The position numbers and the translations under genes were made by a program. Source: Fructobacillus americanaquae (GTDB lineage Bacteria > Bacillota > Bacilli > Lactobacillales > Lactobacillaceae). Taken from it: a stretch of DNA of 64,000 nt. Below, piece by piece: positions 18,793-57,243 of this stretch (within the stretch, counting starts at the first letter, position 1; the number at the start of each line of letters is the position of its first letter). The notes under the pieces were generated by a model. The model was not told the DNA's origin. It ran no database searches and was given only the letters and a program-made list of their open reading frames with translations. The stretch lies in contig NZ_CP097122.1 in the NCBI RefSeq assembly GCF_024029775.1, positions 800,001-864,000 on the forward strand, read 5' to 3'.

Positions 18793-19007
18793 TATAATAG
18801 ACGTATCATCTGTTGGCAAAAGTTTACTTCCATGGAAAAGACAGAAAGTTAGCGGTCGCTGTAAGCTATCCCATCTTAAGCTGAGTTACACAACAGGAAT
18901 CGATGACGTCGAGTCGCGTTAAGACTAAATGAGTGGCCTTCAAGAGGCAATTTAGGTGGTACCGCGGACAATTCGCCCTAATCAGTTATGATTAGGGCTT
19001 TTTTTTG
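18793..19007 (+). promoter_or_regulatory. tyrosine T-box leader of tyrS
   Basis: An extended -10 promoter (TGTTATAAT, -10 at 18793-18798) starts the leader. Stem I closes with TGTTG (18811-18815) and CAACA (18891-18895). A UAC codon at 18887-18889 is the likely tyrosine specifier. The T-box sequence TTTAGGTGGTACCGCG is at 18951-18966, and a terminator (GCCCTAATC/GATTAGGGC plus T8) is at 18974-19007. Uncharged tRNA-Tyr would stabilise the antiterminator and switch on tyrS. Confidence 0.95.
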
Positions 19008-19059
19008 TCCTGATTTCTAACTGAGACGAACGTGCCGGTAATCAATGGAGGAAAGTAAA

Positions 19060-23112: not shown

Positions 23113-23868
23113 TTAGTGAACAAAATATTCAAGCAGGTCCTCTTCACTGAGGTCCTTTTTTTCTTGGTCCTTGACGTCTAAGACAATCTTACCGGCGTTG
23201 AGGACAATTAAACGATTCCCATAAGTTAAGGCGTCTGCCAAATTATGGGTGATCATCAATGCCGTGAGATTATTATCAATAACCTGATGATTAGTGGCAT
23301 CCATTAGTTGTGCCGAAGTCTTAGGATCTAGGGCGGCCGTGTGCTCGTCTAATAGTAGGAGTTCTGGCTTAACCTGAATAGCCATTAGAAAGGATAGTGC
23401 TTGTCGTTGGCCCCCAGAAAGGGAACCAGCGGCTGTCTGCAAACGGTCTTCAAGATTGTTGCCCATCTTTTCGGTAATGTTATGGTAAAAGTCCAATTTT
23501 TGATTAGATAGATGGCGATTTTTCAGTGTCCGCCGTGAACCACGCTTTTCAGCTAAGAGGAGGTTTTCGGCAACAGTCATGCGGGGGGCAGTCCCCATCT
23601 TTGGATCTTGGAAAACTCGGGCTAAAAAAGCGGTTCGTTTAACAGCTGGAAGGTTGGTAATATCTTTGCCCTGGTGATAGACAGTGCCTGAACTTAGGGC
23701 GAGATCACCAGAAATAGCGTTGAACAAGGTTGACTTCCCAGCCCCGTTAGTCCCCAGGACAGTGATGAAATCACCGGGGTAAATTTCTAAGTTAAGCTGC
23801 TTTAAAATTTCAGTTTGATTGCCGACAGTAACGGTTGCATCTTTTAGGGTAATCACGGGTTTAGTCAT
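23113..23868 (-). CDS. trpZ: ABC transporter ATPase, probable tryptophan uptake (TrpZ-like)
   Basis: This 251-residue ATPase energises the transporter encoded by the two genes upstream. Walker A GTNGAGKST lies near residue 41, the signature SLSGGQRQALSF near 145, and Walker B LLLLDEHTAALDP near 168. The gene begins 8 bp inside the end of the permease gene, with AGGAGG before the ATG. The trio SBP(PF04392)-permease-ATPase is the organisation of the streptococcal trpXYZ transporter. The Trp assignment rests mainly on the Trp leader peptide. Confidence 0.75.
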   Translation of the reverse strand: MTKPVITLKDATVTVGNQTEILKQLNLEIYPGDFITVLGTNGAGKSTLFNAISGDLALSSGTVYHQGKDITNLPAVKRTAFLARVFQDPKMGTAPRMTVAENLLLAEKRGSRRTLKNRHLSNQKLDFYHNITEKMGNNLEDRLQTAAGSLSGGQRQALSFLMAIQVKPELLLLDEHTAALDPKTSAQLMDATNHQVIDNNLTALMITHNLADALTYGNRLIVLNAGKIVLDVKDQEKKDLSEEDLLEYFVH

Positions 23869-24760
23869 GGTGCTGTCCTCCTAACTGGAAAAGCTTGTCT
23901 AATTTCAAATAATGGCGAACTTGTGGCAAAACCATCGCGATCGCCAAAATAATGGATGAAATCAGGTTCAAATCATTGGTTGAGAAGCCAAGTTGCAAGA
24001 CAGCTAACAGAACTAAGCGATAAATAATGGAACCGATGATGACAGCAACCAAGCGCTGATTTAATGACAAATCACCAAAGGCAACTTCGCCAATAATAAT
24101 AGAAGCCAGGGCAATGACAATGATACCAATTCCCATGTTAATATCCGCAAAGCCGTTGTTTTGAGCAATCACAGCGCCACCAAAGGCAATCATGGCATTT
24201 GAGACCATTAGACCCATAATGATCATTTGGTCAGTCTTAATTCCAAAGGCTGCAGCCATTTTGGCGTTATCGCCGGTAGCGATGAACGCTTGTCCGAGCT
24301 CCGTTTGCAAGAACCAGATTAAGGCGAGGGTAATCAAAATAATGATGATCAGGCCCACAAAGACGCCGTCAAAGTATTTTGGCAGACCTTCTAAGAATGG
24401 TGACGAGAAGATTGTTTTTTGATTTAAAAGAGAAATGTTAGCAGATCCCATAATTCGGAGATTAATTGACAGGCAGGCTGTCATGACCAAAATTCCGGAA
24501 AGCAAAATCGGAATCTTGCCCTTTGTATACAAAAGGCCGGTTACTAGGCCGGCTAGGGCGCCAACGAAGATGGCAGCTAAAGTTGCCAGGTAGGGGTTGG
24601 CCCCATGGGCGATTAGGGCAACAGCGGTCGCACCTCCAAGAGGAAAGGAACCTTCAACCGTCATATCGGCAAAGTTTAAAATCCTAAAAGTTAAAAACAG
24701 GGCCAGGCCCAAAACGGCCCACAAGATTCCCTGAGAAATACTTGAAACAACAATTGACAT
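23861..24760 (-). CDS. trpY: ABC transporter permease, probable tryptophan uptake (TrpY-like)
   Basis: The 299-residue membrane subunit has eight or more hydrophobic helices and belongs to the branched-chain amino-acid/ribose permease fold (BPD_transp_2). NFADMTVEGSFPLGGATAVALI near residue 28 is characteristic of the PF04392-associated permeases. Its start codon overlaps the stop of the substrate-binding gene (TAATG), and GGGGAGG precedes it. It forms the channel of the predicted tryptophan importer. Confidence 0.78.
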   Translation of the reverse strand: MSIVVSSISQGILWAVLGLALFLTFRILNFADMTVEGSFPLGGATAVALIAHGANPYLATLAAIFVGALAGLVTGLLYTKGKIPILLSGILVMTACLSINLRIMGSANISLLNQKTIFSSPFLEGLPKYFDGVFVGLIIIILITLALIWFLQTELGQAFIATGDNAKMAAAFGIKTDQMIIMGLMVSNAMIAFGGAVIAQNNGFADINMGIGIIVIALASIIIGEVAFGDLSLNQRLVAVIIGSIIYRLVLLAVLQLGFSTNDLNLISSIILAIAMVLPQVRHYLKLDKLFQLGGQHHD

Positions 24761-25761
24761 TAGAAGACCTCCCCGGCTTTTTCAGCCTTGGCAACGATAT
24801 CGGCCGGCAAAGTAATGCCAAGCGTTTTCGCTGTTTGTTGGTTGATGACGTAATTTCCCTTCGTGACGTTGTAAACTGGCATCGTTGCAGTTTTCTTCTT
24901 GCCACTAAGGACTTGGGCAGCCATCCGACCAGCCTGATAACCAATTTCATACTGTGAATTAGAAAAAGTAACCAAACCACCGTCTTTAACCATTGAATCA
25001 GCAGCCGGAATCACAGCAACATGTGCTTGGTTAGCGACGGCCACTAAAGTCTTCATCGCCGTGGCAACACCGTTATCTTGCGGTGCGTAAACAGCGTCAA
25101 CCTGGCTGACCATCGTGGTTGCCACCTGTTGCATGTCATTAGTAGAAGCAATCGTATAGTTTTTGACTTGATAGCCGGCCTGTTTTAATGCACTGGTCAT
25201 TTTTTTTGCATTATAAGTCCCACCGGCATCAGAAGAAGTTGAAATGACTCCGATTGTCTTTGCTTTTGGTAAGACTTCCTTGAAGACAGCAATCTGCTTT
25301 TCATAAGGAGAATCGCCACCGACACCAGTAATATTAGCGCCAGGATGAGCATCTGATTTTACTAGTTTTGAACCGCTAGGGTTAGTAATGCCCGCTAAGA
25401 TAACGGGATTCTTCCCATCGGCAGCCTTTGCTAAGGAAAGAGCTGCTGGCGTAGCGATTCCAACAGTTAAGTTTTCGTTTTTATTGGCAAAATTTTGAGC
25501 CATGGTTTTTAAATTAGCTTGATCTGCTTGTGCATTTTGATAGTCAATCTTCACGTTTTTGCCGGCAGTGTAACCACCAGCAGCTAGACCAGCCACAACT
25601 CCTTGGTGAATTTGATCCAAGGCAGGATGAGTGACTAACTGCAAAATTCCCACAGTGGGGATGCCTTTTTTCGAACTAGTGTTCGTGTTACCAGTGGTGA
25701 AAAAGGCAACGACTAGGAAAAGGGCGATGAATGATGTCACGGTTAGTAGACGCTTATTCAT
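24760..25761 (-). CDS. trpX: ABC transporter substrate-binding protein, PF04392 family (TrpX-like)
   Basis: The 333-residue protein has an N-terminal hydrophobic helix (residues 4-23, LLTVTSFIALFLVVAFF) and then a two-lobed periplasmic-binding fold of the ABC_sub_bind type (VGILQLVTHPALDQIHQG, then ILAGITNPSGSKLV). No lipobox cysteine follows the helix, so it seems to be anchored by an uncleaved helix rather than by lipid. It starts after GAAGGAG. The tandem Trp codons in its leader suggest tryptophan as the substrate. Confidence 0.78.
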   Translation of the reverse strand: MNKRLLTVTSFIALFLVVAFFTTGNTNTSSKKGIPTVGILQLVTHPALDQIHQGVVAGLAAGGYTAGKNVKIDYQNAQADQANLKTMAQNFANKNENLTVGIATPAALSLAKAADGKNPVILAGITNPSGSKLVKSDAHPGANITGVGGDSPYEKQIAVFKEVLPKAKTIGVISTSSDAGGTYNAKKMTSALKQAGYQVKNYTIASTNDMQQVATTMVSQVDAVYAPQDNGVATAMKTLVAVANQAHVAVIPAADSMVKDGGLVTFSNSQYEIGYQAGRMAAQVLSGKKKTATMPVYNVTKGNYVINQQTAKTLGITLPADIVAKAEKAGEVF

Positions 25762-25808
25762 TTTTTACTCCTTCATACTTCTAATATACTGGCCCAGACA
25801 AGTTTTAG

Positions 25809-25936
25809 ACAAAAAGAAAAGCCTGCCTGGGTATTATGATTAAACCCAAACAGACTTTTAATGAATTGCAGTATTGCAAAAGAGCCGGTTGGGACAAAAC
25901 TGTTGTCACAGCTTGTCCAAACGACGAGCTGCTTTC
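25809..25936 (-). promoter_or_regulatory. transcription attenuator between the Trp leader peptide and trpX
   Basis: A 13-bp stem (25820-25832 with 25844-25856) followed on the minus strand by TTTTCTTTTT is a clear intrinsic terminator before trpX. Upstream, GGACAA/TTGTCC and CTGT/ACAG form a second hairpin. ACCGGC after it can pair with GCCGGT, which spans the last sense codons and stop codon of the leader peptide. CCCAA could also pair with TTGGG of the terminator arm. These mutually exclusive pairs fit ribosome-controlled attenuation. Confidence 0.7.
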
Positions 25937-25984
25937 CTACCGGCGCCACCATTGGCGGTTAGATTGTGAAGCAAACTGACGCAT
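25937..25984 (-). CDS. Trp leader peptide (15 residues, tandem Trp codons)
   Basis: The peptide MRQFASQSNRQWWRR starts after AAGGAGTCGCGT and ends 176 bases before the trpX start. Its two adjacent UGG codons (25946-25951) lie three codons before the stop. Such a pair is very unlikely to be chance beside an amino-acid transporter with its own terminator. Ribosomes short of charged tRNA-Trp would stall here and change the folding of the following RNA. This role is an inference from the layout. Confidence 0.78.
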   Translation of the reverse strand: MRQFASQSNRQWWRR

Positions 25985-26018
25985 ACGCGACTCCTTAAAA
26001 CATTTAAAAGTTAAGTTA

Positions 26019-26047
26019 AGCATACAAGACGGGACTAGGCCTGTCAA
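26019..26047 (-). promoter_or_regulatory. promoter of the trp leader-trpXYZ operon
   Basis: TTGACA (26042-26047), a 17-bp spacer and TATGCT (26019-26024) form a near-consensus promoter. It lies about 30 bp upstream of the leader peptide. Confidence 0.85.
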
Positions 26048-56990: not shown

Positions 56991-57011
56991 GTTGTGTTAA
57001 GGTAAGAACAA

Positions 57012-57243
57012 CAAACAAAGAGGTCGCAACGAAAATCAGTAACCCTGGGGAGTCTGGCCAAGACGAAGAATGAGGGTGAAAGGTGCTGTTGCCGAAAGGA
57101 AATTTTTGGGCCAAAGATTCTCCTTGGGCCGGTGAAGAAGATTCATCGGACTGTCGTTTTTAACGGTGCGCTTTGCTAATCATTGCTATCATTATTGAAC
57201 GAATTTACCGCCTGTTTTGTTTTGTGACAAAACAGGTTTTTTA
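57012..57243 (+). promoter_or_regulatory. lysine riboswitch with terminator upstream of lysP
   Basis: The conserved lysine-aptamer blocks occur in order: AGAGGTCGCA (57019), CAGTAACCC (57037), GGTGAAAGGTGCTGTTGCCGAAAGG (starting near 57074), CTTGGGCCGGTG (57123) and ATCGGACTGTCG (57145). A terminator CCTGTTTTG/CAAAACAGG plus T6 (57211-57243) follows. Lysine binding should favour termination and reduce permease synthesis. Confidence 0.92.

Follow-up and report, generated by a model that had tools for sequence, protein, structure and literature searches.

Organization of the trpXYZ leader

The window analysed here, a 64,000-nucleotide stretch of Fructobacillus americanaquae DNA, carries on its minus strand an operon of three genes, trpX, trpY and trpZ, which encode the substrate-binding protein, the permease and the ATPase of a tryptophan ABC importer and are preceded by a leader region (Table 1). 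TrpX scores 407 bits against the NCBIfam TrpX equivalog NF041285, the cut-off of which is 390, and is 96% identical to the TrpX of F. tropaeoli. The initial annotation had described a promoter, a Shine-Dalgarno (SD) sequence, a reading frame with Trp codons and a terminator in front of trpX, and all of these were recovered on the minus strand where it had placed them. The promoter, which it had called near-consensus, indeed scores 10/12 over its -35 and -10 hexamers, and the same pair is present in the Fructobacillus relatives. The span that it had drawn, 25809-26047, contains these elements and ends at the terminator; the conserved element runs further, to about 25768, and takes in segment 6 and the SD of trpX. 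An automated terminator scan made no call at the first terminator (T1) because its loop is 11 nt long. The fold of the leader was better than those of 200/200 shuffled sequences (z -3.7). The element occurs as a single copy in this genome, which also carries a tryptophan synthase alpha gene.

Table 1. Features of the trpXYZ leader and operon, and further regulatory elements of the window
Feature	Position in window	Strand	Remarks
Promoter, -35 TTGACA, 17-nt spacer, -10 TATGCT	26047-26042 and 26024-26019	-	Scan, 10/12 consensus
Leader-ORF SD, AAGGAG	25991..25996	-	SD retained in relatives
Leader ORF, MRQFASQSNRQWWRR, 15 codons and stop	25937..25984	-	
Tandem regulatory Trp codons, TGG TGG	25946..25951	-	TGG unchanged throughout alignment A1
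Segment 0, GCCGGU, over the last leader codons	25939..25944	-	Partner 3; covariation
Segment 1, GCAGCU	25927..25932	-	Partner 2; helix in nearly all groups examined
Segment 2, GGACAAGCUGU	25908..25918	-	Partners 1 or 3
Segment 3, UUUGUCCCAACCGGCU	25883..25898	-	Partners 0, 2 or 4
Segment 4, AAAGUCUGUUUGGGU	25844..25858	-	Partners 3 (antiterminator) or 5 (terminator)
Segment 5, ACCCAGGCAGGCUUU, 3' arm of T1	25818..25832	-	Partners 4 or 6
T1 hairpin, arms	25858-25844 / 25832-25818	-	Followed by U-tract; upstream of trpX
T1 U-tract, CTTTTCTTTTTG	25810..25821	-	
Segment 6, CUUGUCUGGG	25793..25802	-	Complementary to 5; here without second terminator T2
trpX SD	25768..25774	-	Predicted pairing with T1 U-tract in the OFF fold
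trpX, substrate-binding protein of Trp ABC importer	24760..25761 (ATG at 25761)	-	NF041285
trpY, permease (BPD_transp_2)	23861..24760	-	
trpZ, ABC ATPase	23113..23868	-	
T-box candidate	18804-18983	+	60.8 bits, under the Rfam cut-off; immediately before tyrosyl-tRNA synthetase ORF at 19045
Lysine riboswitch	57010-57181	+	102 bits

Conservation across Lactobacillales

Genera are labelled g1 to g97 here; g1 is Fructobacillus, and g29 includes Oenococcus, with L037 from O. oeni. The leader was found in 13/13 Fructobacillus genomes, always with 15 codons and ending in NRQWWRR before the stop, and in 14/14 genomes examined of g16, again always with 15 codons and ending in WWRR. Given that all 13 Fructobacillus genomes share the 15-codon WWRR leader and that its pairing covaries, the leader is not a chance reading frame. 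We sampled 92 TrpX upstream regions across the family, and 88 of them have a TGG-bearing leader at the homologous place. Of the remaining four, L053 and L088 were represented by truncated upstream sequence, and the leader behind L088 is visible in L210; L072 and L089 have no leader. The peptides mostly read LNxxWQSR in the lactobacilli, LNxxWWRR in the Leuconostoc-like genera and WWW in Oenococcus. In Oenococcus and the rest of g29 (L037, L055, L063, L064, L067, L068) the WWW ORF begins about 10-15 nt past the -10 box with no SD seen, making it near-leaderless, and is followed by two short tandem terminators.

With the structure models R1 and R2 the RNA core was detected in 226/301 genomes and 30/40 genera of the family. 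R1 also matched 150/395 genomes in five other families of the order (f2, f3, f5, f7 and f9), and the examples that we read from these have a Trp leader before TrpX or, in L151, before trpB. The latter record (G347, family f7) has the same leader, ending in LNTAWKSWRSSLY before the stop, upstream of this gene for the tryptophan synthase beta chain. In L164 (G055) a reverse transcriptase ORF of group II intron-like type takes the place of trpX behind the element. Outside the order the sole R1 match was G762 (E 0.008), which has neither TrpX nor a leader and was rejected as chance. A TrpX-like operon on a plasmid of the fusobacterium Ilyobacter polytropus (L216) has a leader ORF with WWW and, in tandem, two terminators with complementary arms in common; no structure-model match was obtained in this record, and it is possibly the same system or a distant analogue.

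The initial annotation had named lack of conservation in relatives as the outcome that would speak against its reading, and we found the Trp codons and the terminators to be kept. It had pointed to both Leuconostocaceae and Streptococcaceae for this comparison, and the expectation held within the family, where the leaders are conserved, but not for streptococcal trpX: R1 had no match among the genomes listed of f4, which is probably Streptococcaceae, and the trpXYZ operon of Streptococcus suis is under a T-box. A Tyr/Phe-coded relative of the element does precede a TrpX paralog in S. suis. The element is order-wide rather than peculiar to this genome, and it forms a longer relay that usually ends in a second terminator.

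A chain of mutually exclusive helices

Seven segments of the leader RNA give rise to a series of mutually exclusive helices, 0:3, 1:2, 2:3, 3:4, 4:5 and 5:6. The pairing of GCCGGT with ACCGGC (25889-25884), to which the initial annotation had drawn attention, corresponds to helix 0:3 and covaries across genera. In a tally of the 0:3 and 2:3 core over 44 diverse sequences, 91.5% of cells were paired and 13/17 pairs had changed on both sides, with 110 double-change cells vs 30.1 +- 6.9 in shuffles; slid versions of the same structures were 29-44% paired. Within segment 0 the covariation takes the form of G-C to A-U replacements at W+10 and W+11, in 10 and 7 genera respectively. Helix 1:2 was 68.8% paired in the global alignment vs 61.6% in shuffled controls, a weaker support that is due to variable loop lengths, and examined sequence by sequence this helix was found nearly everywhere. 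An H-type pseudoknot of 1:2 with 2:3 was also considered, but the two helices share bases and were thus treated as exclusive.

For the downstream helices we compared, in 25 genera, the duplex formed by a genus's own segments with duplexes formed with partners from other genera. The own duplex was the stronger in 21/25 genera for 3:4 and in 24/25 for both 4:5 and 5:6, whereas unrelated segment pairs behaved as expected by chance (4:6 and 3:6 in 12/25 each, 3:5 in 8/25). In nearly all genera other than Fructobacillus, segment 6 lies within the 5' arm or the loop of the second terminator, T2, and therefore 5:6 and T2 compete. Many lactobacilli have a 4:5 hairpin without a U-run, and there T2 serves as the terminator; the T1-type and T2-type groups fit one switching logic. 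The lactobacillar loop CUGGCAAACAG was entertained as a T-box-like site for the end of tRNA-Trp and set aside, given that it differs in the g8 record L069, in Leuconostoc-like genera and in many others.

Ribosome position and the proposed mechanism

If the first base of the Trp codon is taken as reference, the start of segment 0 falls between +5 and +9 and that of segment 1 between +14 and +20 in nearly all sequences; stop codons are found from +9 to +24. By this geometry, a ribosome whose A site holds the Trp codon would cover segment 0 and not segment 1, and one at the stop codon would cover segment 1. We checked this by equilibrium folding of transcripts that ended before segment 5, the ranges of the results reflecting the footprints assumed for the ribosome. 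A stalled ribosome raised 3:4 pairing above the level without a ribosome in 65-73 of 81 sequences, and above that with the ribosome at the stop codon in 57-61 of 81, a partial separation. The folding check is supportive but partial, as a kinetic switch would predict.

The sequence features that mark an attenuator are found together here: a leader ORF with a start codon, an SD and codons for the sensed amino acid; exclusive hairpins kept by compensatory change; stall and stop sites that block different segments, with the folding check partly supportive; and an intrinsic terminator upstream of the structural gene. We therefore propose, with a probability of roughly 0.88, that the leader is a ribosome-mediated transcription attenuator that would read the charging of Trp-tRNA and control the importer genes trpXYZ. 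Attenuation by Trp codons is also what the initial annotation had put forward, and it is the best explanation, the Trp codons, pairings and terminators all being conserved in relatives. From this arrangement we infer the stalling, the order of folding and the response of readthrough. At low Trp the leader ribosome would stall with TGG in the A site, covering segment 0 and leaving segment 1 free; 1:2 would then form, releasing segment 3 to pair with 4, so that the T1 hairpin 4:5 is blocked and transcription continues. The freed segment 5 would pair with 6 and, in most relatives, disarm the second terminator. Since segment 6 is usually inside that terminator, a single stall could be sufficient to inactivate the two of them. 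When Trp is plentiful, the ribosome would reach the stop codon and cover segment 1, and segment 3 would be captured by 2:3, after release also by 0:3, allowing 4:5 to form and transcription to stop. If the leader is not translated, 0:3 should likewise give the OFF state.

In Fructobacillus T2 is absent and 5:6 is retained as a helix of 8-13 bp in 13/13 genomes. Here 5:6 may keep the trpX SD free: in the present genome the predicted unpaired fraction of the SD is 0.05 in the OFF fold, in which the T1 U-tract tends to be its pairing partner, vs 0.53 when 5:6 is formed. Across the 13 Fructobacillus genomes the ON value was at least the OFF value in 13/13, with means of 0.65 vs 0.36, an outcome that a fold model without pseudoknots favours, and the difference is small in L009, L010 and L013. 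On these folds, the second stage might conceivably have switched from termination to translation in this genus.

Natural codon swaps

In genus g8 extra copies of the element precede a fused SBP-permease belonging to the Arg/Gln/cystine transporter class, behind which G019 has an ATPase and a deacylase of the ArgE/DapE type; in L186 the copy lies upstream of a protein that we judged by eye to be OppA-like. In 6/6 of these non-trpX copies (L169 and L186-L190, before Arg-type ABC transporters or the OppA-like protein) CTG CGA stands in place of TGG CAA, and the resulting peptide, LNIRLRSR/Q, is rich in Arg codons and has no Trp, while the trpX copies of g8 retain WQS. We read the LRSR/Q copies as putative Arg sensors; Leu sensing by them is an alternative that the codons would also allow. 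Two further versions precede TrpX paralogs, one on an Enterococcus gallinarum plasmid (L215:830-1110; 334 bits vs the 390 cut-off; leader ending in LNIAYFSYFR) and one on an S. suis plasmid record (L217; 289 bits vs 390; leader ending in NHTYFYGYFR). Both carry Tyr/Phe codons at the Trp site, with 3:4 and 5:6 intact. In g24 a WQSW leader is found upstream of an OppA-like protein.

These natural swaps support the sensing of codons. It is likely, in our view, that the elements belong to a retargetable relay superfamily, in which a single scaffold of Lactobacillales, and perhaps of Fusobacteria, has had its Trp, Tyr/Phe and Arg codons swapped along with the transporter, and in which one stall would disarm two serial terminators through the chain of helices. 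Rfam would then already list pieces of this superfamily, one under an orphan riboswitch candidate and another under an sRNA.

Relationship to the trpB motif and alternative explanations

A cmscan search matched the window, over segments 2 to 5, to RF04312, the 'trpB motif', with 28.9 bits (E 0.032). The cut-off of this family is 59 bits, which L142 (66.5) and L134 (63.8) pass and L151 (58.9) just misses; at E<=0.001 the family had no match in the present genome. The window element is thus a diverged relative of RF04312 that falls below formal membership. The P1 of the published motif (SRC-39-1) is helix 2:3 and its P2 is the 4:5 hairpin, and the targets, amino acid ABC transporters and trpB, are the same; the leader ORF, helix 0, segment 6 and T2 are not part of it as published. 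According to its authors, what follows the motif is in most cases an uncharacterised amino acid ABC transporter and occasionally trpB; they placed it among the strong riboswitch candidates that lack a known ligand, without dismissing a classic attenuator (PMC11109978).

The match of the downstream half to this candidate is what speaks for a metabolite riboswitch, binding Trp or a related ligand, in which the ORF would be incidental. We consider this improbable. An SD-bearing ORF with an invariant TGG overlaps helix 0, just outside the part of the published motif modelled by Rfam, and a conserved Trp-coded ORF in that place favours the attenuator, which the motif's own authors had left open. 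Furthermore, the P1 loop varies freely in sequence as well as length, so that it offers no conserved core for binding, and the codon at the TGG site varies with the type of transporter. A comparably small chance attaches to an arrest peptide of the TnaC kind, in which the nascent chain rather than codon starvation would stall the ribosome and sense the free amino acid. This would account for the L-N pair four and three residues ahead of the Trp, conserved through different synonymous codons (N in 103/140 and L in 75/140 leaders) and likewise present in the Arg versions and in most of the Tyr/Phe ones. A number of leaders, that of the window among them, moreover end in RR. Plain codon stalling does not need the conservation of L-N, which is either an RNA constraint or a nascent-chain effect on stalling. 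However, the exchange of Trp for Arg or Tyr/Phe on a retained scaffold is what codon sensing predicts, the R/Q alternation at W+3 tracks RNA pairing, and an importer is expected to be up at low rather than high Trp. Two further points count against the attenuator: most lactobacilli have one Trp codon only, and a lone codon is a weak stall sensor; and the codon-position entropy signal of the leader ORF is weak (1.02, 0.82 and 1.08).

T-box and TRAP switches are the usual route by which Firmicutes control Trp genes. A switch of either type can practically be dismissed here, being refuted as far as the models reach: RF00230 had no match at the trpX leader while about 21 T-box candidates were detected elsewhere in the same genome, and a TrpBP gene was not found in this genome in a search with a positive Bacillus subtilis control. 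T-boxes do occur with such genes, as in a clostridial TrpX record (L219) that matches the T-box model and in S. suis trpXYZ (PMC9382623). The latter governs the same operon with the same output, up at low Trp, and differs from the attenuator proposed for the window in binding uncharged tRNA directly, without a leader peptide.

Comparison with known attenuators and Rfam families

The attenuator of the Escherichia coli trp operon (trpL; RF00513) likewise has a short peptide with tandem Trp codons, exclusive hairpins and an intrinsic terminator, and is ON at Trp starvation, as we infer for the window's leader. The window's element comes from a different phylum and controls an importer; it has a longer relay with the extra 5:6 step and usually, among relatives, a second terminator, and its helix 0:3 should hold the OFF state when the leader is untranslated. 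RF00513 had no match at E<=5 in the window's leader, and there is no detectable sequence relation between the two. Ribosome-mediated attenuation at trpX is borne out as far as the sequence evidence reaches; it is ordinary in kind, unusual in its lineage, architecture and retargeting, and informative for an orphan Rfam family. T-boxes are the textbook route for Trp genes in lactic acid bacteria; leader-peptide attenuation of Trp genes is apparently old and widespread in them. A search confined to open-access papers turned up no Trp leader peptide described for these bacteria. Leader-peptide attenuation in Firmicutes has been described for the leucine-rich attenuator peptide of Staphylococcus aureus ilv-leu (PMC5794164) and predicted for his genes in the Bacillus cereus group and others (PMC9413887). 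Those systems concern other amino acids and biosynthetic operons, with no relay architecture described.

The orphan riboswitch candidate RF04312 is probably resolved by an order-wide, retargetable relay attenuator. For this family, with its >900 representatives, this offers a testable answer, in that the sensor would be the leader peptide just upstream and a ligand would be unnecessary. The natural Trp, Tyr/Phe and Arg swaps on one scaffold should also be useful for understanding and engineering attenuators. A second Rfam family is touched by the Tyr/Phe version: RF02863, 'Enterococcus sRNA 2410' (sRNA_2410), matches the leader RNA of L215 from E. gallinarum with 89.5 bits. It is catalogued as an sRNA, and what it matches here is the Tyr/Phe-coded leader RNA ahead of a TrpX paralog. 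The family therefore probably represents a leader RNA and not an sRNA acting in trans, and the two transcripts reported for sRNA_2410 in Enterococcus faecium (PMC5593968) would then be leader RNAs ended at the tandem terminators.
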